A stretch of DNA of 60,102 nt from a virus. Every line of letters begins with the position of its first letter. Position 1 is the stretch's first letter. Below the pieces are notes generated by a model. That model was not told the origin of the DNA. It worked only from the letters and a program-made list of their open reading frames with translations, and did no database searches. Below, piece after piece: positions 8,035-60,102 of this stretch. The DNA lies in the IMG/VR virus record IMGVR_UViG_3300034257_000006, positions 1 to 60,102 of that record; one strand, written 5' to 3'. The position numbers and the translations under genes were made by a program.

Positions 8035-8120
8035 GCTGAACGCTGCCGCTAAAACGCGGCTGAGACAAATATAGTTTAATCTGACGGTCGGAAGCCGTCG
8101 TTTTCAGCGGCTTGTTCTGA
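8035..8120 (+). other. attC-like palindrome A
   Basis: An 86-base imperfect inverted repeat nine bases after the stop of the previous gene. Left arm GCTGAACGCTGCCGCT plus AAAACG pairs with right arm CGTTTTCAGCGGC plus TTGTTCTG, with one unpaired base between GCCGCT and AAAACG, as in integron attC sites. An inner hairpin GACGG/CCGTC lies at about 8082-8099. The outer boxes are TGAAC and GTTCTG rather than the strict consensus. Confidence 0.5.
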
Positions 8121-8154
8121 CTCCGTGTCTTGTAGGTTCTATGGAGGTTATATC

Positions 8155-8520
8155 GTGAAAGGGTTCATTGAAGTTATCGGGTGGCTGTTCGCTGGTATCT
8201 TTGCAGTTGGGCTTCTCCTGGGCATTGGATGGGTCGTTCAAGGTAACGACTTTTTCATGTACCAGATGTTCGCTCCGAAGTACGAGAGCGTGCGGCGCGA
8301 AACGTTCGAACAGTCAAAGGCATTCAATCAGGGGATGATTCAGGAACTGCAGGACATGCAGTTTCAGTACGTCAAGGCCGCGCCGGAACACAAAGTCGCG
8401 TTGGCGTCGATCATCCTGCATCGCGTGGCAGATTATGACGAATCGAAACTTCCGACGGACCTGAGATCGTTTGTCTCAGGCTTGCGCCGGGAGCGATCCT
8501 TTACTGGAGAGAAAGAATGA
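8155..8520 (+). CDS. membrane-anchored protein, 121 aa
   Basis: GGAGG lies seven bases before the GTG start. Residues 2-27 form one hydrophobic helix (FIEVIGWLFAGIFAVGLLLGIGWVV), so the protein is anchored with a long helical domain facing one side (residues 45-110, RRETFEQSKAFNQGMIQELQDMQFQYV). It overlaps the following lipoprotein gene (ATGA), suggesting the pair act together at the envelope. Similar in look to DUF-type phage envelope proteins encoded upstream of lysis genes. In the cassette reading, this pair is one cassette. Confidence 0.7.
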   Translation: MKGFIEVIGWLFAGIFAVGLLLGIGWVVQGNDFFMYQMFAPKYESVRRETFEQSKAFNQGMIQELQDMQFQYVKAAPEHKVALASIILHRVADYDESKLPTDLRSFVSGLRRERSFTGEKE

Positions 8521-9005
8521 GAGTGATTTTGGCGTTGATGACCTTGTTGCTTGTCGGATGCGAAATGGAAAAGAGCATCGACACTGTTCAACGAGAGCAA
8601 CAGGAAGTTCTTTTGAAAGAGGCAACGTCAGCAGTTGGAATGCCTGCGATTCACAATTTTCGCGAGCGAAAGATACTGAAGGACATTCTGGAACTTCGGG
8701 ATCAGGACGGACTGGTTACGTTCACGTACATTTTCAATGAACTGAATGGCACGCTGGTGTTCCTGGGTGAATCGATCGGCTACGGCATTCCTTACGCAAC
8801 GCAGTTCACGAACCCGGAGAAACTGGAGAGGGTTCATAAACTCGAAGCTCTTTACGAGGTCTTGCCTCAAGCTGATCCGAACGGCTTGTATTCTCCTGCG
8901 GCTGCGGAAGGAACGTGGATCTTGATGAAAGATCCAAAGGGAAGCGACGTGAAGCCGGTGTACGTTGAAGCCCGCGTCATTGTGTCGCCGTTCAGGCTAC
9001 TCTGA
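8517..9005 (+). CDS. putative lipoprotein, 162 aa
   Basis: The N-terminus MRVILALMTLLLVGCEMEK is a lipoprotein signal with lipobox LVGC, so the mature protein should begin at Cys15 and sit on a membrane. The mature part has a helical start, then a beta-rich region (LVTFTYIFNELNGTLVFLGESIGYGIPYATQF) and ends with YVEARVIVSPFRLL. It recalls a family of phage/prophage lipoproteins of unknown function. The start overlaps the stop of the membrane protein upstream. A superinfection-exclusion role is conceivable but unproven. Confidence 0.75.
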   Translation: MRVILALMTLLLVGCEMEKSIDTVQREQQEVLLKEATSAVGMPAIHNFRERKILKDILELRDQDGLVTFTYIFNELNGTLVFLGESIGYGIPYATQFTNPEKLERVHKLEALYEVLPQADPNGLYSPAAAEGTWILMKDPKGSDVKPVYVEARVIVSPFRLL

Positions 9006-9090
9006 TTGCTGGCATGGATGCCAAGCAACCGCTTGTGCTCACGCGAGGCAGGATGCCGGACGTGAGTAGTCAGAACGCTTGGCGTTTCTG
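9001..9090 (+). other. attC-like structured site B (multi-hairpin)
   Basis: Directly after the lipoprotein stop. TCTGA (9001-9005) can pair with TCAGA (9070-9074) and enclose two hairpins: TTGCT GGCAT / ATGCC AAGCAA (9006-9028) and CTCACG/CGTGAG (9038-9066). A third hairpin, CAGAACGC/GCGTTTCTG with one unpaired T, occupies 9071-9090 and carries the GAACGC box shared with the other sites. The loop GGCATGGATGCC also occurs in site E. Confidence 0.4.
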
Positions 9091-9119
9091 GACCGCCTTA
9101 CATTTTTGAAAGAGATTCG

Positions 9120-9449
9120 ATGCAAACGAAAACGGAAGAAACGAAGCCGGTTCCAGAACAAGCCATTGTTCACACGCCTGGACCGTGGTTTACCCTGCAT
9201 GAAAGCTCAGCGATCGGAACAGGCGATATGACGATCGCCAGAGTGTACTGGTCGGAAGGGCGTAGTGACGCTGAGAACACGGCGAACGCTCGACTGATGG
9301 CAGCGTCACCAGACATGCTTGATGTGCTGAACAGGTTCGTCGCGTGGGACAAACGATACCCAAATAACACAATCCACTCCAAGGCTGGGGAGTGGCAACT
9401 TGATGAACTATTCAACGCCGCACGTGCGGTGATTTCGAAAGTCGTGTAA
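9120..9449 (+). CDS. conserved phage protein (HTPGPW ... ANARLMAASPDML family)
   Basis: A 109-aa protein. The signature HTPGPWF near residue 19 and ENTANARLMAASPDMLDVLNRF near residues 57-80 define a very common phage and prophage protein family of unknown function. AAAGAG lies upstream of the ATG. Its stop TAA is the first three bases of the TAAC box of site C, exactly as cassette ORFs often end in an attC site. It forms the whole of one putative cassette. Confidence 0.8.
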   Translation: MQTKTEETKPVPEQAIVHTPGPWFTLHESSAIGTGDMTIARVYWSEGRSDAENTANARLMAASPDMLDVLNRFVAWDKRYPNNTIHSKAGEWQLDELFNAARAVISKVV

Positions 9450-9508
9450 CGCTGCAAGTCTGCGGCGATTACATGGATGTCTTCGTCCGCAGCAATTGCT
9501 TGTTATGC
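9444..9508 (+). other. attC-like palindrome C
   Basis: The clearest attC-like site, about 65 bases. Left box GTGTAAC (9444-9450) pairs with right box GTTATGC (9502-9508); inner arms CAAG/CTTG and CTGCGG (9460-9465)/CCGCAG (9487-9492) enclose an apical region with ACATGGATGT. Its TAAC includes the stop codon of the upstream gene, and the next ATG follows 20 bases after the right box. A T7 run follows at 9511-9517, so it might also act as a terminator. Confidence 0.6.
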
Positions 9509-9528
9509 AGTTTTTTTAGGAGTGAGCA

Positions 9529-9897
9529 ATGTCTGGTATTCAATTCAGAGGCCGCAAGGATCACGAGCATTTAGATTCATCGTACAATTTGTGGGATGGC
9601 GAACATTTAGGAGACATCTCATCGTGGCATGCTGGTGATACCGTGGCTGTCTGTTTCGCGATCAGCAAAGAGCAAGAGAGTCTGATTCTCGACAACACTG
9701 AGTTGCCTGTCGGCAGCGGACTCGCCAGCGTGATGTGTGTTGTCGTTCGTCGCAGCCATTCGATCATCTGGAGGTCAGTTGGTCGGTTCGAATCGCTGAT
9801 AACGTGCTCAGTGCTGCTCGAAGCGGAGAGCGGACAATGGGAGGATGTGTTGAGGTACATCATATTCGGAAAGATGCCAGATCACTGGTCTGCATAA
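9529..9897 (+). CDS. hypothetical protein, 122 aa
   Basis: Unrecognised. AGGAG is placed nine bases before the ATG. The centre (DTVAVCFAISKEQESLIL ... GLASVMCVVVRRSHSIIWRSVGRFESLITCSVLL) is beta-rich and globular without known motifs. The stop TAA is again shared with the TAAC box of the following palindrome. It stands alone between two attC-like sites, like a cassette gene; unknown-function single ORFs are usual in integron cassettes. Confidence 0.65.
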   Translation: MSGIQFRGRKDHEHLDSSYNLWDGEHLGDISSWHAGDTVAVCFAISKEQESLILDNTELPVGSGLASVMCVVVRRSHSIIWRSVGRFESLITCSVLLEAESGQWEDVLRYIIFGKMPDHWSA

Positions 9898-9978
9898 CGC
9901 TTGGCACTTGTTGTCCGCGCGGAGTATTTTCAATTTCGAAGAACGTGGCACGCGGTCGGCAACGTGCCGTTGTTAGGG
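9892..9978 (+). other. attC-like palindrome D
   Basis: An 87-base site. Left box GCATAAC (9892-9898) overlaps the stop TAA of the upstream gene; right box GTTAGGG (9972-9978) lies nine bases before the next ATG. Paired arms: GGCAC (9903-9907)/GTGCC (9964-9968), TTG/CAA, CCGCG (9915-9919)/CGCGG (9951-9955), with mismatched bases between them. This is the second-clearest attC look-alike. Confidence 0.58.
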
Positions 9979-9986
9979 GGCTAGTG

Positions 9987-10301
9987 ATGCACAAGGGATT
10001 TAGGGACGCGATTCACGTTCCATTCGTCATGGTAACGTGCGGAGACACATTGAGGCCCGCGGAGAAGTGTTCACTGAGAGACGAAAACCAGTGTGTTCGG
10101 TGGCAAGGTGGAAGCCCTGATATTGAACCAATGTGGCACGGGATAGCCGATCCATTTCGGGAATCGGAAATACCTTCCGGAGAGGTGTTTCCGTTGTACA
10201 TTCGAAAGGAATGTTTTCACGGCCTCACGCACGATTTTCAAATTGAGGTTCACGACAGAGGCGGCACAGGCACATGCCATAGCGTTTGCGATATCTTCTG
10301 A
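9987..10301 (+). CDS. hypothetical protein, 104 aa
   Basis: Unrecognised. The ATG chosen is the one directly after palindrome D; a long in-frame extension upstream would cross the palindrome and the previous gene and is unlikely to be used. The protein has a small beta-rich centre (HVPFVMVTCGDTLRPAEK) and a Cys near the end (GTCHSVCDIF). No catalytic pattern seen. GGGGGC precedes the start. It is the sole ORF of its putative cassette. Confidence 0.55.
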   Translation: MHKGFRDAIHVPFVMVTCGDTLRPAEKCSLRDENQCVRWQGGSPDIEPMWHGIADPFRESEIPSGEVFPLYIRKECFHGLTHDFQIEVHDRGGTGTCHSVCDIF

Positions 10302-10305
10302 GTCC

Positions 10306-10374
10306 CCCTAACGCCGCGTGCTAACCGGTTTGGAGTGGCATGGATGCCTGTCCAAAGCCGGTGATTAGTGGGCC
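10306..10374 (+). other. attC-like palindrome E
   Basis: Starts with CCCTAAC (10306-10312) four bases after the stop codon. A long stem follows: CTAACCGG with TTTGGA (10321-10334) pairs with TCCAAA and CCGG with TGATTAG (10351-10368), with one unpaired G at 10357. The tip GGCATGGATGCC matches that of site B. The right box reads GATTAGTG, not GTTA, so it is the most decayed of the set. Confidence 0.45.
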
Positions 10375-10396
10375 AGTCGATTTGTGATTCGTTGAA

Positions 10397-10417
10397 CGCT
10401 GCCAATCATTGGCAGCG
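10397..10417 (+). other. short perfect hairpin F (possible truncated cassette site)
   Basis: CGCTGCCAA (10397-10405) and TTGGCAGCG (10409-10417) pair perfectly around TCA, and the motif TGAACGCTGCC at its left end matches site A. No T run follows, so it is a poor terminator. It might be a remnant of another attC-like site. Confidence 0.35.
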
Positions 10418-10489
10418 GGGAAGATTTCGGAGAGTGGGCAGCGGTGGTCGCTGTCCAATGAATTGGCTTTTTATCTGCAGAGGTGGATT

Positions 10490-10705
10490 ATGGATGAGCG
10501 AGCAATATGGCTGAAGAGAGAAAACGACAACACGCTGACGGTTTCTGTCGAGGCTGGCGGCCAGTGGGTCGAGGTAATCCGAGAGCACGGCGATGGGCCA
10601 ATCAGTCACATCGTCGAACCGTCTGGAATCGAGAGGCGGATCAAAGAAGCTGCCACCGATTTCTCAGAAAAGGATTTGGCTGCATCTGGCGGATATGTGC
10701 GATGA
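10490..10705 (+). CDS. hypothetical protein, 71 aa
   Basis: Unrecognised. GAGGTGG lies directly before the ATG. The reading MDERAIWLKRENDNTLTVSVEAGGQWVEVIREHGDG suggests a small beta sheet followed by a C-terminal helix (IERRIKEAATDFSEKDLAASG). The stop overlaps the start of the SNF2-like helicase gene (ATGA), so it may be an accessory partner of that enzyme. Confidence 0.65.
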   Translation: MDERAIWLKRENDNTLTVSVEAGGQWVEVIREHGDGPISHIVEPSGIERRIKEAATDFSEKDLAASGGYVR

Positions 10706-25674: not shown

Positions 25675-26405
25675 TCCAGTTTCTCCTTTATAAACCGACT
25701 CAATGGTCCTTCGACTTTCCTTGACCGCAACAGCATGTTGCTCGTCTCTTCGCGTTCTTTGGCTTTTGGATCGATGGTTCCGTCGGCGTACGGCGTGACT
25801 CTGCCGGCCCAATTTTTAAAGGGATGGCCGAGGTGCAATACCTCAAATGGAGGGCGAACGTGTTTTTTGTCTGGCCACTTCGAATGGAAGAACGAATCAG
25901 CACTTCCGGCCCATGTGAAATCAAGTGAATGCCAAGGTGGAGGACCGAGTACAGTGTCTGATCCGTGAAACAACTGGCAAAATCCGGCGAACTCTTCGTT
26001 TGTTCGCAGCCTCTTATACTGACGCCATTTTCTTTGTTCTGGAATTCCCGTAGAGATATCATGCTTTATTCGACGGTGTGGAACGTAAATGCAGCCTGGC
26101 ACTGGAATGAAAGAATGACGATTCTCCGGTATTGCGATGTCTGCGTCGATGTTCAGTAACCAACCATCCCGTCCAAAGACATCATATGCCTCTTCAATTG
26201 CTGCGAACTTATTCAACTTCGCGCCACGTCGATAAAAGACATCAGTGATATGAACTCTCGCGCCATTCGCCTGAGCAACGTCGATTGTTTTCGTGTCTCT
26301 AGCGACAGTCACAACCATCGTCTCTTCGATGAAAAATTTGTGCGTCGGCAACGTCATCTCAAGGATGTCACCATAATCGACTGAGACGCAAACTGCCCTT
26401 ACCAT
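25671..26405 (-). CDS. glycosyltransferase-like protein, 244 aa
   Basis: GT-A look: VCVSVDYGDILEMTLPTHKFFIEETMVVT at the start, then DGWLLNIDADIAIPENRHSF with a DxD-type NIDADI motif (about residues 87-96). The later HPFKNWAGRVTPY is typical of acceptor-site regions. The first ATG with a plausible ribosome site was used (MVRAVCVS). Likely adds a sugar within the same pathway as its neighbours. Confidence 0.75.
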   Translation of the reverse strand: MVRAVCVSVDYGDILEMTLPTHKFFIEETMVVTVARDTKTIDVAQANGARVHITDVFYRRGAKLNKFAAIEEAYDVFGRDGWLLNIDADIAIPENRHSFIPVPGCIYVPHRRIKHDISTGIPEQRKWRQYKRLRTNEEFAGFCQLFHGSDTVLGPPPWHSLDFTWAGSADSFFHSKWPDKKHVRPPFEVLHLGHPFKNWAGRVTPYADGTIDPKAKEREETSNMLLRSRKVEGPLSRFIKEKLE

Positions 26406-26941
26406 TTTCTCGCCCACCATGAAGCCATCTCATCATCCGTTAAATACACTTGCAACCCTGTCTTTTTCCTGAACTCTTCAACCGCATAAACCACACCCGG
26501 CAGACACGAATTGAAATCGTGACCTGCGATTATTCCCCCGTCCATCACCTTTGGGAACCAAAGACCAATATCCCTGCTCACGCTTTCGTAATCGTGCAGT
26601 GCGTCGATGTATACGATGCCAAATAAATCGTACTCCAGATGAGCAGCCGCCTCTTCGCTCGTCATTCGAAGCACTGAGTATCGACCATGAAATTCATCCA
26701 TTGCCATCATGGCGATCTGCATGTCCTGATCTCTGTCTCGGCTTGAATCGTCCGAGCATGGATAGTACGTTTCATTACCTTCAGTAAATCCTTCCCATGG
26801 ATCAACAAGCGTAATTGTTCCTCGGAATCTCTGCATGAACGACTTCGCAAAAACACCCTGGTGCGTTCCGATCTCAACTGCCGTCTGCAATCCAAGTGCG
26901 TTTGCGATGTCGGCCAAACATTCTCTTGTCGCAAGTCTCAT
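26399..26941 (-). CDS. SAM-dependent methyltransferase (methyltransf_24 type)
   Basis: A 180-aa enzyme. TAVEIGTHQGVFAKSFMQRF is the SAM-binding motif I, ITLVDPWEGF the acidic-loop region, FGIVYIDALHDYESVSRDIGLWFPKVMDGGIIAGHDF the motif around the catalytic aspartate/histidine found in TylF/MT24-like enzymes acting on sugars or small molecules. The size is a little short but complete. It overlaps the next glycosyltransferase gene and likely methylates a glycan. Confidence 0.83.
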   Translation of the reverse strand: MRLATRECLADIANALGLQTAVEIGTHQGVFAKSFMQRFRGTITLVDPWEGFTEGNETYYPCSDDSSRDRDQDMQIAMMAMDEFHGRYSVLRMTSEEAAAHLEYDLFGIVYIDALHDYESVSRDIGLWFPKVMDGGIIAGHDFNSCLPGVVYAVEEFRKKTGLQVYLTDDEMASWWARKW

Positions 26942-27876
26942 CGATGAGAGTTTCCAATGTAATCAACTGTTGACTTCAGTGACTGCTCAGACACTTCTGA
27001 CCGCAGTGTCACAAACTGAACGTCGCGATCCGGCTTCTTCGGTTTGTAGATTTCAGCGTGTGTTGCAGAAACCTGTTCACGACCAGATTCATCCTGCGCC
27101 AATGATCCGTGCCCGCGAAGAGGAACTCCGCATCCATGGCAATGATGCCTGACCTGTGCTGCGTAGGCTTGCATGGGTTGCTTCCACCACCCATTGACTA
27201 CAGGAACGCCTGTGTCCGGATAATCCGGATCCCATTGATGCAGAATCGACTGCGCTCCAGCGATTTCGCAGAACCACGCCCTGAGTTCTCCACGGAACAT
27301 GCCGACCATGGACGACCACTGCTGATTGATGTCGCACTTAGAGATTAGATCCCATCGTTCTGCTTCGTCTTCGATGACATCCTGCATAGCGACGTAAACG
27401 GGTGAATGGCGTGAATCTTCGTGCAGACCGAATGGACGAGATTCAGGCCAGTCGCGTTTAAATTCGTCGTAGGCTTCGCGGTCGAGATGGACATTCAGGT
27501 TTGATACCAGAGGATTGAATGTCTTCCGGATTATTTTTCCGTGCCCCTTGGGATGATTGCACCAAAGACCACAACGAGACTTGCGAATGCGCGTGCTCAG
27601 TATTCTGCACAACTGGTCGAACTTCGGATGCATCGCAGGGTTGCCTCCGAAGATCCCAACAACACCGAAGTAGTCTTTCAGTGTAATGACAGCCTGCTCA
27701 AACAGTTCAGGAGTAATCATCGTCAGCTTACCACCGAGATTCGACCCCTGTGTACACCCGAAGCATGCTTTGTCGCATGCACGAGTGATATGGATCTGGA
27801 CAATCCCGCCCATCCATGCCGCTTTACGCTTCATGCCGGGAGAAACCATTTTGCTCAATGCTTCCTGCTCGTTCAC
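26938..27876 (-). CDS. radical SAM enzyme
   Basis: A 312-aa protein. The radical SAM cluster motif is seen as CDKACFGC (CxxxCxxC, about residues 34-41). IFGGNPAMHPKFDQLCRIL follows as the glycine-rich SAM-binding part, and HHCHGCGVPLRG near residue 245 may hold a second iron-sulfur or metal site. Radical SAM enzymes are rare in phages and here lie in a glycan cluster, so a sugar or nucleotide modification is likely, though substrate is unknown. Confidence 0.85.
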   Translation of the reverse strand: MNEQEALSKMVSPGMKRKAAWMGGIVQIHITRACDKACFGCTQGSNLGGKLTMITPELFEQAVITLKDYFGVVGIFGGNPAMHPKFDQLCRILSTRIRKSRCGLWCNHPKGHGKIIRKTFNPLVSNLNVHLDREAYDEFKRDWPESRPFGLHEDSRHSPVYVAMQDVIEDEAERWDLISKCDINQQWSSMVGMFRGELRAWFCEIAGAQSILHQWDPDYPDTGVPVVNGWWKQPMQAYAAQVRHHCHGCGVPLRGHGSLAQDESGREQVSATHAEIYKPKKPDRDVQFVTLRSEVSEQSLKSTVDYIGNSHR

Positions 27877-28595
27877 TTCAGGCTCCTGACTGCGTCGAAT
27901 TTGTGCAGTCGATTACTCCACACTGTGAAGCGATCTTCCTTGGGATGCGTTCCAGGAGGGTAAAACACAGAGGATGGATTGTCCGCAATCTTCTTGACGG
28001 CGAATCTCTTGAATGCCGATCCGACCCGCTCGTCATTCAAGACGATAGGTTCTGTGACAGTCGGTACGTGGTAATGACATTCGATCCGGATTTCTCCGTC
28101 CAATTCACAAACGTCTTCGCACGCAGCAATTGCCAGTTCGAAGTCTTCAACATGATCAATTGCGTTGACTGAGATCACTGCATCGAATGTCTCGTTCGTG
28201 TTAATGTCTTCCATGCAGGACTCAATCAATTCTGCACCATTACCATAGACTCGATATCCACATTCGTTATACCAGGAGTGCAGTGGATCTAGAGAATGCA
28301 TTGATGCCCCCACGAAGAACCGACTCAGACCCAATGGACCTGATCCCACTTCAAGAACATGTTTCCCAGAGAAGTACGTTGGCTCGACGAACAGCCGTTT
28401 GCAGTATCGCCACTTGTCGCAATTGATCCACGTCTCGATAGCGTTCAGTTCTTCAGTTTCGAGGTGGGTTATTTTCTCGAAGTCCTTCGGAGCATTGATG
28501 CCGTACATCTCTCGGCACCCTCCTCGGAACCAGTGAACGTAACGTCCAATTTCATCCTTCCAGAACTTCTTCTCTTCGTCATTCTTCTCGGTCAT
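27873..28595 (-). CDS. class I SAM methyltransferase, 240 aa
   Basis: VLEVGSGPLGLSRFF (about residues 77-90) is SAM motif I, MHSLDPL motif II, FDAVISVNAIDHVEDFELAIAACEDV motif IV and the helix after it, typical of small-molecule methyltransferases. The N-terminal 60 residues are helical and charged. It overlaps the radical SAM gene by four bases. Likely a methyltransferase of the glycan island. Confidence 0.83.
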   Translation of the reverse strand: MTEKNDEEKKFWKDEIGRYVHWFRGGCREMYGINAPKDFEKITHLETEELNAIETWINCDKWRYCKRLFVEPTYFSGKHVLEVGSGPLGLSRFFVGASMHSLDPLHSWYNECGYRVYGNGAELIESCMEDINTNETFDAVISVNAIDHVEDFELAIAACEDVCELDGEIRIECHYHVPTVTEPIVLNDERVGSAFKRFAVKKIADNPSSVFYPPGTHPKEDRFTVWSNRLHKFDAVRSLK

Positions 28596-32949: not shown

Positions 32950-35795
32950 TGTGCAACCGCCCTCATGTCCTTCTTCTTTATCGCTTCTGTTGTCTGGTCC
33001 TGCGACATTACGAGTTTCCAGAGTGGCGGCAGAAACTCCATCATCGCATCTCGGATAGCCGCTGCCTGACGGTCGTTCTGTTCCTGGATTGACGGTATGC
33101 TTGGAACATTGAAGAGACCTTGGAAGAACCCAAGCTGACCAGACCGTCTCTCATCTGCACCTCGATTGCCAGAAAGAAGACTGTCTCCGCTGTTTTTGAA
33201 GAAGTTCACAAGACGTTCTTCGTTTATAGCCTTCGTCAAGACTTCGATTTCTTTGCGAAGATCTTCCTGAGACTTAATCAGCTTGTCGTCCACACCAAGG
33301 ACGTTCGTCTGCAGCTTTTTTACGAAATCATCGAAGTTCGTGAACGTCGATACCTTGTTCTTCTCTTCCGACTTCTTCAGTTCATCCTGTGACTTCTTCA
33401 GAAGACGACCAAGTTCCAATTGAAACAGTGCTGACTGCGTTTCGTTAGCCGCGTTCGCCGCTTGTATCCCTTTTAGCCCAGTATTCGGATCCGCTGACTT
33501 CAGTGCTTTTGTGATCAGTTCGTCAATCCCTTGGCGGATCTTGTCGTTCTTCAGAAAGATCTCTTCAATCTGCGAGGCACCTTCAAATGCGAACCCATTC
33601 AATTCCGCCTGCGCGAGCTTAATTCCGAATGCGAGTTCTTTGTTCTTGTCGATGATTACGTCGAGACCCTGAATGATGTTTTGGTTCTCGATCTCTTGGT
33701 TCTGCAATGAAAGTCTGTTTATCTTTTCTAGTTCTGTTCCAAGGTCACTAAGTTGAGTTTTTAACCCCTTTACCTTCTCTTCTGATATGCCTTTGAAGAA
33801 GAAACCATCCGTCTCTTTTTTTGCTTTGTCGAGTTCTTCAATTATCTTATTGAATGACGCTCTGGCTTCAATAATATCCTTCGAGGCAGATGGTGATCCT
33901 TTGCTGACGGAATTCTGTGATTTTATTAAGTCATCATTCGCTTTAATCAGAAGGTCTATTGCCGCAGTTACCTCCTCTTGTTCTCTCTTCACTGCTTTTG
34001 GATCAACAGGCGTTCTATTAAACAGACCAGACTGATCCGGTCTTCCGATGTTCTTGAATCTTATTTGCTCAAGTTCTATCACGGAACCTATATCTCGTGA
34101 TGCTCTCTCAAAAGCCTTTGACTCATCAAGCGACTTTGTGATTGCTGAAACCGTCTTCTGATTGTCGTCTCTCTTCGAAAGAAGATCGTTCGTTCTCTTC
34201 ACTACATCTTCAATGGATTTTGCATCTCTAAGATCACGCTCAAACTTTGAGCTTCCGATTTCAAGGCCAACATTGAATTCAGCGTCTGCGACGTTTCGTT
34301 TTATCTTCTCTCCAATATCCTCAAGTTTCGCTTCGACTTCCGACAAAGACTGAAGCCATTCAACCATCTTCGGAAGAATCACAATCGCAAATGCAGATCC
34401 GATACCGGCAATCAGCGGAAGCTGCTTTGCCCACCCCTTACCGATAGCGTCTTGAACTTCTTTTGTTCTCGACATATCGTTCAGGAGAAACGCCACGTTG
34501 TTCGCCGCGCCTCGGACACCACCGGCAAACCCGTTTAGACTGAAGCCAACCGAAAAGTCTTCAACCGCCTGTCCGAGCTGATATGCGTTGTTGCTCAGGT
34601 TATTGAACGAAGAACCTTTTTTGGTTGCTTCTTTCTGTATTCGCAGCATCTCTGCGCGAACTCCACCTGTGGTGAACTGCGTATCGTCTAAATTGTTGAG
34701 CGTTATTCCGAGACGTTTAAATTCATCTTCAACTGACTTCGTAACTCCATTCAGCGCAGTAAAGTCCGAAATGAATCGCTGCAGGCTTTCGTCTGTTCCG
34801 TCGAATGCCCTCGCAGATTCCTTCAGTGCAAATTCCAGCCTCTTGATATTGCCTGCAGTTTCAAGTATCTCCGCCCGCTGATCCGCCGATATCCCCTGCA
34901 CCGCCTGATGTCGCAGAGACGACTCGACGTTGAATCCGACACGAAGTGTTCTGTCTTCGTCGCTGAATTGGTTGAAGATTCCACGATTGACAGACTTTGC
35001 GTCCGCAATTGAATCTGCCTTTATTCGCAACGCATCAAGTTGATCAGAGAGTCTCTGAATCTGTTGGCTGGCGTCAGTAACGTCGATCAGGTTTTCAGAT
35101 CGAATACCTTGAGACAGTTTTAGCTTTGCTGCGTCGATCTGTTCGTTAAGGCGAGCGAACTCTCGCGAGATCCCTGAGTCTTCACTGGCTGATACAGAGC
35201 CCTTTACGTTCTTCACACTCAGCAATGATCTTTCAACTGCTTCCCTCTGCTCTCTAAATGACTCGCTCCTGTCGAATGTTGCAGTTTCAAGTCCTGATGT
35301 TCGTATCTTCTCTGCTGTTACTTCTCTGAGGATTGCGAGTTCATTTTCTCGAAGTTCTATGATCCGAAGAACAGCAGCGATCTGGTCGTCTTCTACTTCC
35401 GTTGTAGCGAAAGTTCTTGCTTGACCTGCCACTTCGTTCGAGAGATTCTGGAGCCTGTCTTTGATGTCTTTGTCATTTGCAATACGGACATCCACAGACA
35501 GAAACGCCTTGTCTCTGTTGAATTCAAGGACAGCAAGACGCAAGTCTCTTCGCAAACGTGCTGCCATATCATCTTCTGGGCCTCCACCTCCACCTCCACC
35601 GCCGCCTCGACCACCTCCGCCCCCACGCCCTCCTCCTCCGACAACAGGATTAGGAATGTTCAAAGGAGGGATGTTTGCGTTGATAAACCGCTCTCTGACT
35701 CTGTTTATCACGCTCTCGGTGATCGCGTCGAAGTCCTGATCGAACCGTGGCTTGATGTTGACGAAGATGTCAAGCAGTGAGTCATCATCCGCCAT
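32946..35795 (-). CDS. tail tape measure protein, 949 aa
   Basis: Largest gene in the window. The 949 residues are mainly helical and coiled coil. A glycine-rich run (GGGGRGGGGGRGGGGGGGG at about 52-72) follows a short N-terminal domain, and hydrophobic segments occur near residues 420-480 (VAFLLNDMS; LPLIAGIGSAFAIVILPKMV). These, its size and its place downstream of the chaperone pair identify it as the tape measure, which sets tail length and enters the host membrane. By the usual rule of about 0.15 nm per residue the tail would be about 140 nm long. Confidence 0.88.
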   Translation of the reverse strand: MADDDSLLDIFVNIKPRFDQDFDAITESVINRVRERFINANIPPLNIPNPVVGGGGRGGGGGRGGGGGGGGGPEDDMAARLRRDLRLAVLEFNRDKAFLSVDVRIANDKDIKDRLQNLSNEVAGQARTFATTEVEDDQIAAVLRIIELRENELAILREVTAEKIRTSGLETATFDRSESFREQREAVERSLLSVKNVKGSVSASEDSGISREFARLNEQIDAAKLKLSQGIRSENLIDVTDASQQIQRLSDQLDALRIKADSIADAKSVNRGIFNQFSDEDRTLRVGFNVESSLRHQAVQGISADQRAEILETAGNIKRLEFALKESARAFDGTDESLQRFISDFTALNGVTKSVEDEFKRLGITLNNLDDTQFTTGGVRAEMLRIQKEATKKGSSFNNLSNNAYQLGQAVEDFSVGFSLNGFAGGVRGAANNVAFLLNDMSRTKEVQDAIGKGWAKQLPLIAGIGSAFAIVILPKMVEWLQSLSEVEAKLEDIGEKIKRNVADAEFNVGLEIGSSKFERDLRDAKSIEDVVKRTNDLLSKRDDNQKTVSAITKSLDESKAFERASRDIGSVIELEQIRFKNIGRPDQSGLFNRTPVDPKAVKREQEEVTAAIDLLIKANDDLIKSQNSVSKGSPSASKDIIEARASFNKIIEELDKAKKETDGFFFKGISEEKVKGLKTQLSDLGTELEKINRLSLQNQEIENQNIIQGLDVIIDKNKELAFGIKLAQAELNGFAFEGASQIEEIFLKNDKIRQGIDELITKALKSADPNTGLKGIQAANAANETQSALFQLELGRLLKKSQDELKKSEEKNKVSTFTNFDDFVKKLQTNVLGVDDKLIKSQEDLRKEIEVLTKAINEERLVNFFKNSGDSLLSGNRGADERRSGQLGFFQGLFNVPSIPSIQEQNDRQAAAIRDAMMEFLPPLWKLVMSQDQTTEAIKKKDMRAVAQ

Positions 35796-50844: not shown

Positions 50845-51026
50845 GGCGAAACCTCGCAATCCAGTATCGAGGCCGCAGTGTCGATGATGACCTGGCGAAC
50901 GATGTCGGCCTGGTCGTCGATTTCCTGCTCAGAGCGTTCTCGTTCGTCGGAGTCGCGTTCGCGCTGTAGTTCCGATAGTTCGTTGAAGAGTTTTCGAAAT
51001 TCGTCGCGAAGTTGTTTTACGTCCAT
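50841..51026 (-). CDS. coiled-coil protein, 61 aa
   Basis: Almost entirely one long helix: MDVKQLRDEFRKLFNELSELQRERDSDERERSEQEIDDQADIV, a coiled coil with a helical tail. It overlaps the RadC gene end by ten bases. Probably an oligomerising adaptor; no assigned function. Confidence 0.6.
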   Translation of the reverse strand: MDVKQLRDEFRKLFNELSELQRERDSDERERSEQEIDDQADIVRQVIIDTAASILDCEVSP

Positions 51027-51610
51027 TTACTTCCACTCCTATGCTCCTGAATACTCAAAGCCTTTTCCCCCGCTACAATGATATGGTCAATAAGCGGCAT
51101 CCCGATGATCTCAGCGACTGATTCTAGTCGCTCTGTTACGCTGATATCCTGATCAGACGGTGCAGGATCTCCGCTTGGATGATTGTGAACGACCAGAATA
51201 CAATTCGCCGCATCGGCAATTGCCGGACGAAATACTTCGCGTGGATGAACCAGAGAATTCCGAAGCTTGCCGACGGTTATCTGGTGCCGATTTATCGGCT
51301 GGTTCTTTGTGTCCAGCGTAACAAGCCAAAACTCTTCCTGGACGCCATTGCATGCGAGCGCACGGAACTCAGAGAGACAGTACGCCATCGCCGCTGCTGG
51401 AGATCCTATCTTCGTTCGATACGGCGATTGTGGTTCTGCGATTTCCTTGGCAAGCGCGATTGCCGACGATATTCTCCGCGCGTCGCCTATCGGGATTCCA
51501 CGCGCGAGCATTTCATCGATTGTCAGACGGGCGATATCGCAGATTGAATCAGGCAGGCGTTTGCGGTTCTTAGCCGATACGATGTGCTGCAGTGCTTTCG
51601 AAGTTCTCAT
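51017..51610 (-). CDS. radC: RadC-like JAB/MPN-domain protein
   Basis: A 197-aa protein. It begins with MRTSKALQHIVSAKNRKRLPDSICDIARLTIDEMLARGIPIGDARR (UPF0758/HhH-like N-terminal part) and contains the JAB metal-site signature: VVHNHPSGDPAPSDQDISVTERL (HxHPSGxxxPSxxD) near residue 150, with LDTKNQPINRHQITVG and LVHPREVFRPAIADAANCILVVHN before it. RadC/JAB proteins are common on mobile elements and phages and were linked, loosely, to DNA repair. AAGG lies before the chosen ATG; a longer reading would start in the terminator hairpin. Confidence 0.9.
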   Translation of the reverse strand: MRTSKALQHIVSAKNRKRLPDSICDIARLTIDEMLARGIPIGDARRISSAIALAKEIAEPQSPYRTKIGSPAAAMAYCLSEFRALACNGVQEEFWLVTLDTKNQPINRHQITVGKLRNSLVHPREVFRPAIADAANCILVVHNHPSGDPAPSDQDISVTERLESVAEIIGMPLIDHIIVAGEKALSIQEHRSGSKWT

Positions 51611-51638
51611 TTTGTGCCTTGCTAAATTGTGAAAATGG

Positions 51639-51665
51639 AACGGCGAGCACAATGTGCTCGCCGTT
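51639..51665 (-). terminator. palindromic terminator after the 129-aa gene
   Basis: AACGGCGAGCAC and GTGCTCGCCGTT pair almost perfectly (10-12 bp) with a tiny loop, followed on the minus strand by CCATTTTCAC. It lies 14 bases after the stop of the gene at 51679-52068, just before the RadC ribosome site. It could act on both strands. Confidence 0.75.
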
Positions 51666-51678
51666 GGGAATGTGAACA

Positions 51679-52068
51679 CTACGTTACGACGATAGTCATT
51701 GTGTCTGTGATCTTGGCGAGCGACTCAGGTAATTTGCCTTCCTTGATGTACTTCGAAAACGTCGCAGGCGCTAACCAGTTTTCCGTGCGCGTCTGATGTG
51801 CCAAGCCGAGTTCAATACACTTGTCAGTCGCCGCTACGTTGTCAGGACACCCGATTGAACGCACAACAACTGGCTTGAGTAATCGGATTTGCGCGCCGAT
51901 CTTAACGGCCCGTCCTTCCCCGATGTCATCAAGAACCGTTGAATGCAGCGCGTTCATGCGTGCCTCAAGTTCCTTGATTTCCTTCTGTCGCGTGACGATG
52001 AGATCATTTGCAAGCACATACTCGGTGATTGCCTTGTTTGACCGAATGTTTGATGAGACTTGAACCAT
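51679..52068 (-). CDS. coiled-coil protein, 129 aa
   Basis: Long helices in the first 55 residues (KAITEYVLANDLIVTRQKEIKELEARMNALH) then a compact domain (AVKIGAQIRLLKPVVVRSIGCPDNVAATDKCIELGL). CACGGAGTATC lies before the start, part of a local leader with TTTTACGGAG-type sites. Not recognised; could be DNA-binding. Confidence 0.62.
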   Translation of the reverse strand: MVQVSSNIRSNKAITEYVLANDLIVTRQKEIKELEARMNALHSTVLDDIGEGRAVKIGAQIRLLKPVVVRSIGCPDNVAATDKCIELGLAHQTRTENWLAPATFSKYIKEGKLPESLAKITDTMTIVVT

Positions 52069-59025: not shown

Positions 59026-59267
59026 TGGATATAGTCGCTTGGTTTGAATGGGACAAACACAACTGGAATCATTTTTACGTCGTATTTTTTGGCGGCGATT
59101 CGTTCAGCGATCGACTGATGTCTGTTGCACTGAGGACTCCTGTACCGCCTACTCAATAATGGGTTTCCGTCGTTATCGACTAACCACCACGAGTCTGTGA
59201 TGATCTGGAACAGCCCGTCTTGTGGAGTATCCCATTTTTCAATCGGAACGTATTTACTTTCGCTCAT
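59022..59267 (-). CDS. hypothetical protein, 81 aa
   Basis: Start at MSESKYVPIEKWDTP with AGAGGA before it, overlapping the pentapeptide gene's stop. Beta-rich beginning (DGLFQIITDSWWLVDNDGNPLLSRRY) followed by a helix and KMIPVVFVPFKPSDY. No named family. The in-frame reading further upstream lies within the pentapeptide gene and is unlikely. Confidence 0.6.
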   Translation of the reverse strand: MSESKYVPIEKWDTPQDGLFQIITDSWWLVDNDGNPLLSRRYRSPQCNRHQSIAERIAAKKYDVKMIPVVFVPFKPSDYIQ

Positions 59268-60076
59268 TCCTCTTGATCCCTCCCCTCTTTCAACGCCTTC
59301 GTCGGCACCGCCGGACTCGCGGCAATAATCTGCTGCAGAATTGGCTTGAAAATTCTCCACATATCCAAAACGCCAGCATCCATCCTGGAAATCGAATCAT
59401 CGTCCATCGTCCACCACGATTCGATTGGATGACACTGGCAACCAATGAAAATGTGAGTCGCAGTGTACACAACAGAGAACATATAGATTTGCAGCGACTT
59501 CACCTCTCGCATGTTTCCAACCGCGCCGTTCAGGTCCGCACCGTTCAGGTCCGCGCCGTTCAGGTCCGCGCCGCTCAGGTTCGCGCCTCTCAGGTTCGCG
59601 CCTCTCAGGTCCGCGCCGTTCAGGTTCGCGCCGTTCAGGTCCGCGCCGTTCAGGTCCGCGCCGTTCAGGTCCGCACCGTTCAGGTCCGCGCGGCTCAGGT
59701 CCGCGCGGCTCAGGTCCGCGCCGCTCAGGTCCGCGCCGCTCAGGTACGCACCGCTCAGGTCCGCGCGGCTCATGTTCGCGCCGTTCAGGTCCGCGTCTCT
59801 CAGGTCCGCGCCGCTCAGGTACGCACCGCTCAGGTCCGCGCGGCTCAGGTCCGCGCCGCTCAGGTCCGCGCCGCTCAGGTTCGCGCCTCTCAGGTACGCA
59901 CCGTTCAGGTCCGCGCCTCTCAGGTTCGCGCCGCTCAGGTACGCGCCTCTCATATTCGCGCCGCTCAGGTCCGCACCGCTCAGGTCCGCGCCGCTCAGGT
60001 TCGCGCCTCTCATGTTCGCGATATCCGAATTACTCCACAACACTGACCCGTTGAATCGATGTTTAATTTCAACCAC
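59264..60076 (-). CDS. pentapeptide-repeat protein, about 270 aa
   Basis: N-terminal VEIKHRFNGSVLW is the usual start of bacterial pentapeptide-repeat proteins (VEIKxRxTGxVL). About 33 five-residue repeats of type A(D/N)LSG follow over 165 residues; they fold into a right-handed square helix that mimics DNA shape. The C-terminal 90 residues are mixed. In phage this may block gyrase or a restriction enzyme. The start is a GTG with GAAGG upstream in the recurring TTTTACGAAGG leader. The contig join lies within the first part of this gene, so its repeat number should be checked. Confidence 0.88.
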   Translation of the reverse strand: MVEIKHRFNGSVLWSNSDIANMRGANLSGADLSGADLSGANMRGAYLSGANLRGADLNGAYLRGANLSGADLSGADLSRADLSGAYLSGADLRDADLNGANMSRADLSGAYLSGADLSGADLSRADLSRADLNGADLNGADLNGADLNGANLNGADLRGANLRGANLSGADLNGADLNGADLNGAVGNMREVKSLQIYMFSVVYTATHIFIGCQCHPIESWWTMDDDSISRMDAGVLDMWRIFKPILQQIIAASPAVPTKALKEGRDQEE

Positions 60077-60102
60077 AACAACCACCCTTCGTAAAAAGAC
60101 TA
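59976..60102. repeat. terminal direct repeat, right copy
   Basis: Identical to 1-127. It covers the beginning of the pentapeptide gene and its upstream leader (TTTTACGAAGG at 60096-60086). See the left copy for interpretation as the join of a circular contig. Confidence 0.9.

Follow-up and report, generated by a model that had tools for sequence, protein, structure and literature searches.

The DNA analysed here (the window) is IMG/VR record IMGVR_UViG_3300034257_000006, a tailed-phage genome of 60,102 bases that is classed as linear and encodes a terminase, a portal protein and helicases. Within a rightward block of small genes, flanked by a leftward primase gene and an SNF2-type helicase gene, lies a series of imperfect palindromes with features of integron attC sites. 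The tailed phage is uncultured, and the array sits in its early region. A first-pass annotation, made from the letters alone, had described palindromes with AAC-type left and GTT-type right ends after the stop codons of small ORFs. This description was borne out, and the arm scan and signature search reported below put the palindromes above chance. There are, however, six of them rather than the five originally counted, the sixth (S6) lying past the end given for the array, and the hairpin cluster proposed at 9005-9100, after ORF 8517, was replaced by a site (S2) whose inner arm falls within the 5′ part of ORF 9120. Beyond the ORF next to S6, no further site was found by arm scan or signature. 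The sites, the cassettes and the adjoining ORF are listed in Table 1, in which the cassette boundaries are those predicted from G|TTRRRY cuts read off the sequence.

Table 1. Sites, predicted cassettes and adjoining ORF of the array, in window coordinates.
Feature	Position	Strand	Description
attC site S1	8035-8120	-	R' GTTCAGC, R'' TCAGAAC; extrahelical G and A 6 bp apart
attC site S2	9070-9174	-	R' GTTCTGA, R'' TGTGAAC; extrahelical G and A
attC site S3	9444-9508	-	R' GTTACAC, R'' GCATAAC; extrahelical G and A
attC-like site S4	9892-9978	-	R' GTTATGC, R'' CCCTAAC; AAC-13 nt-CGAC spacing retained, inner stem atypical
Degenerate attC-like site S5	10306-10382	-	R' GTTAGGG and inner stem good; R'' without AAC
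attC-like site S6	10391-10479	-	R' GTTCAAC, R'' decayed to TAAA; near-perfect arms, extrahelical T and A
Predicted cassette A	8041-9075	+	S1 with ORFs 8155-8520 and 8517-9005; two-gene unit, membrane protein and lipoprotein-like protein
Predicted cassette B	9076-9449	+	S2 with ORF 9120-9449 (phrog_1273)
Predicted cassette C	9450-9897	+	S3 with ORF 9529-9897; atypical codon usage
Predicted cassette D	9898-10311	+	S4 with ORF 9987-10301; weak phrog_17232 match, atypical codon usage
Predicted gene-less cassette E	10312-10396		85 bp, little beyond S5; from the R' cut points of S5 and S6
ORF next to S6	10490-10705	+	Phage-like codon usage; array end

The folding of attC sites and the choice of strand are directed by extrahelical bases, an unpaired central spacer and a variable tip (PMC8946536). 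All six sites read TAAC...GGAC...CGTTA-like on the minus strand. When the boxes were taken as RYYYAAC and GTTRRRY, with AAC and GTT as the minimum, S1 to S4 carried both; the strict RRRY was not present at every site. The AAC is missing from S5, which has no proper R'' box, and from S6, in which TAAA stands in place of TAAC. Two details of the earlier description were correct: the stop codon TAA forms part of TAAC in two cases (9447-9450 and 9895-9898), and the tip GGCATGGATGCC is present twice in the array. In ORFs 9120 and 9529, the predicted cut coincides exactly with the end of the stop codon. In the arm alignments, two extrahelical bases about 6 bp apart, the second of which is an A, occur in one arm of S1, S2, S3 and S6; these four sites are imperfect palindromes in which the central spacer is unpaired and the extrahelical bases keep to one polarity. 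Of the 55 reference sites that allowed the motif to be located, 44 have the A in an extrahelical position. Folding with DNA parameters, which had been proposed as a check, agreed with this polarity, in that S1, S3, S4 and S5 are more stable on the plus strand, corresponding to the attC bottom strand, and the plus strand of S1 folds like such a bottom strand.

How far could such features arise by chance? We defined a strict signature, made up of AAC, a gap of 12-14 nt, SGA whose A is bulged from a 9-bp stem, and finally CGTT. It occurs three times in the window, always in the array (S1, S2 and S3) and always on the minus strand. It was counted 34 times in integron loci, not once in 1.08 Mb of other viral contigs and at a rate of 0.01 per shuffled window. 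This estimate of chance is optimistic because the signature was worded after the sites in the window had been seen, although its elements were drawn from the reference sites. When the AAC was dropped, S6 became a fourth match, against six matches in the 1.08 Mb and 0.24 per shuffle. An arm scan gave four matches scoring at least 11 inside 2.1 kb, all on the minus strand, where 0.12 were expected; S2 scored 15.8 and S4 11.8, and both are also seen in the arm alignment. One arm-scan match elsewhere (35079-35119) was discarded because of its overlapping arms and its position within a long ORF. A first version of a strict box regular expression missed most attC sites and did not distinguish polarity, a tight pattern modelled on S3 had no matches, and a pattern for the tip motif run across IMG/VR had chance-level matches only, which served as a null set.

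Two covariance models were then scored, R1 from 55 and R2 from 95 attC sites, none of them from the window; the reference loci had been gathered via an integron-integrase alignment. With R1, S3 ranks first in the whole window (minus strand, 19.9 bits, E 0.05; 3.6 bits on the plus strand), and the highest score in 0.71 Mb of other viral contigs was 16.4 bits. With R2, S1 (14.5 bits) ranks first and S3 (13.7 bits) second, both on the minus strand, with E-values of 0.27-0.44; for S1, the arm alignment and strict signature agree with the model. In the 60-kb record, S1 and S3 were thus the top-ranking sites, though with modest E-values. Of the others, S2 scored weakly with R2 (4.0 bits), only an edge fragment of S4 was scored (R2, 9.1 bits), and S4, S5 and S6 were not recovered whole by either model. 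S5 had no match at all and is recognised from its arm alignment and fold, and S6 from its arm alignment and the signature without AAC. When applied to known phage arrays, R1 found two attC sites in Tetrasphaera phage TJE1 (21.4 and 20.0 bits) and four in Pseudoalteromonas phage PH101 (19.8-27.3 bits), at coordinates that are not necessarily those of the very sites assayed in PMC9892861, and recovered none of the sites reported for Polaribacter phage P12002L. A weaker third attC-like site of 12.9 bits (244-293 of the TJE1 sequence) lies upstream of the two strong ones in TJE1 and has the same extrahelical-base pattern. The identification of the sites as attC rests on the concordance of several tests.

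We considered that the palindromes might instead be transcription terminators or mRNA hairpins between phage genes, unrelated to integrons. They lie between stop codons and the next ribosome-binding sites, they also fold as RNA, S3 is followed by a T run, and attC sites may themselves act as weak terminators (PMC9892861). Terminators, however, need neither AAC and CGTT ends, nor the AAC-13 nt-SGA spacing, nor a pair of extrahelical bases spaced by about 6 bp and confined to one polarity; the T run is found at S3 and at no other site, the model scores are strongly strand-specific, and the strict signature is absent from the viral control contigs. We therefore regard this explanation as very unlikely.

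No integron integrase (IntI) or other tyrosine recombinase was found in the 60-kb record, and neither PF00589 nor TIGR02249 had a match in it; the record may be incomplete, so that the absence of an integrase from the phage is unproven. A complete integron comprises intI and attI, and with no intI in the record the locus does not qualify as one. It does correspond to a CALIN, that is, two or more attC sites close together with no integron integrase: S1, S2 and S3, which carry the strict signature, lie within 1.5 kb, and the proximity limit used in PMC9892861 is 3 kb. On its sequence, then, the region is very probably a CALIN with six attC sites, at least four of them of good architecture, four ORF-bearing cassettes and one minimal cassette without a gene. 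The earlier proposal of an orphan attC array in a phage without an integron integrase is thus supported by the covariance models, the extrahelical architecture and the controls.

The contents of the predicted cassettes are partly of phage type. ORFs 8155, 8517 and 9120 belong to phage families, and cassettes A and B, like ORF 10490, have phage-like codon usage. Cyanophage S-SRM01 has counterparts of 8155 and 8517 side by side, in the same order and at 57-58% identity, and no attC-like palindrome was seen between or just after the two genes there; ORF 8517 had no match in 292 bacterial genomes, in a search run without a positive control. Homologues of ORF 9120 start at its residue 18, give or take about three residues; residue 18 coincides with the inner edge of S2, and the first residues of this ORF are therefore attributed to the attC arm: judged from these alignments, ORF 9120 is fused in frame to the S2 arm, which supplies the predicted start codon and first codons. 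No search yielded a relative of ORF 9529; one of these searches covered 687 bacterial genomes, without a positive control. The codon scores of ORFs 9529 and 9987 (0.10 and 0.08 bits per codon) lie below those of their neighbours (0.26-0.35), which fits recent capture.

Could the array be an assembly chimera of a bacterial integron and phage sequence? The record is metagenomic, and the codon usage of ORFs 9529 and 9987 is unlike that of the phage. Against this, the GC content of the array (0.517) matches that of the record (0.505), both flanks and most of the cargo have phage-like codon usage, three of the ORFs belong to phage families, and the array crosses several junctions inside one phage region; a chimera is extremely unlikely. 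A further explanation, which we consider possible but clearly not the more probable one, is that the sites are relics of an old capture that have since decayed and lost recombination. S5 and S6 have no proper R'' box, the inner stem of S4 is atypical, the codon usage of cassettes A and B and of ORF 10490 is phage-like, and no integrase was found in the record. On the other hand, S1, S2 and S3 retain both boxes and both extrahelical bases, the atypical codon usage of cassettes C and D suggests recent entry, and phage attC sites with similar scores were active when assayed (PMC9892861). The decayed R'' boxes of S5 and S6 suggest that activity has been lost in part of the array.

Searches for relatives carrying the locus gave no matches. 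Neither the array region (blastn) nor the portal (tblastn) had a match in INPHARED, IMG/VR pattern searches from the helicase, the primase and ORF 9529 gave no relatives, and a scan of the window with Rfam gave nothing at gathering scores. In IMG/VR, the portal has relatives at 74-77% identity, on eight short fragments only, in which R1 had no match. A related phage group thus exists, with its early region outside these fragments. No insertion or excision event was observed, as the searches gave no relative with another set of cassettes. Elsewhere in the window, the minus strand encodes a protein with matches to sigma-factor and HNH endonuclease phage families (18757-19389), a RadC-like JAB-domain protein (51017-51679) and, at the end of the record, a pentapeptide-repeat protein (59264-60085).

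The polarity of the array is unusual. The ORFs are on the plus strand, where codon scores are better and where the family matches also lie, and all four ORF-bearing cassettes are antisense to their own attC. The first-pass annotation had paired each site with the ORF that it follows; because the attC polarity is minus, each site belongs by integron logic to the downstream plus-strand ORF. The canonical cassette has its ORF in the same orientation as its attC, and none of the four does so here. In the reference arrays, 42 cassettes are sense, 6 antisense and 11 ambiguous; at the rate of 6/48, four antisense cassettes in four would have a probability of about 0.0002, if cassettes are independent draws. 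The all-antisense arrangement is nevertheless not unique, because PH101 has at least one antisense cassette on re-scoring. In the PH101 CALIN (25919-27987 of the PH101 sequence), R1 places attC on the plus strand, and the annotation has gp133, gp134 and gp135 on the minus strand; gp134 has a 203-codon frame clearly antisense to attC, and the third unit additionally contains a plus-strand ORF of 82 codons that is missing from the annotation.

That phages can carry CALINs whose attC sites are functional was already reported in 2023 (Qi et al. 2023, PMC9892861), and the novelty first claimed for the present array was thus overstated. In an IntI1 assay, five of six attC sites from the virulent phages TJE1, PH101 and P12002L recombined, both TJE1 and both PH101 sites among them (PMC9892861). 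The present array resembles the CALINs of these three phages in being an orphan attC cluster with small ORFs in a tailed phage without an integrase, and S3 falls in the same score range as the TJE1 and PH101 sites under the covariance model. It differs from TJE1, whose ORFs follow the attC polarity, and, whereas some cassettes of the published phage CALINs encode DNA methyltransferases, none was recognised in the cargo here. With chromosomal (sedentary) integron arrays it shares the attC boxes, the extrahelical bases, cassettes of about 0.4-1 kb, stop codons abutting the attC edge and a gene-less cassette; unlike them, it lies in a phage, has no intI in the record, carries its ORFs antisense and has phage gene families in its cargo. 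It is another example of a phage CALIN, here with all-antisense ORFs and phage-type cargo.

How might such an array work? While it is single-stranded, in replication or on entry of the DNA, the plus strand would fold into the attC bottom-strand hairpin, and an integron integrase acting in trans would cut the R' boxes at G|TTRRRY. This integrase would probably have to come from the host, because none was found in the record. Cassettes could then enter or leave the array, or be swapped with those of host or phage arrays. With a single polarity shared by all sites and phage transcription running rightward, only cassettes with antisense ORFs would be expressed, and selection may retain these.

Phage-borne attC arrays are still few, and the origin of cassettes is an open question in integron biology. 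The array described here adds two cassettes with recognisable phage genes, an ORF apparently started by an attC arm, and an arrangement in which ORF and site point in opposite directions throughout. Should the sites recombine, phages and host integrons would trade individual genes, cassette by cassette. We also speculate, as an unlikely further step, that phage arrays make or sort cassettes: phage genes such as the S-SRM01-like pair and the phrog_1273 gene would become mobile once bounded by attC sites, and the direction of transcription would select the antisense ones. If this were true, phages would be a source of integron cassettes, and not merely their carriers.
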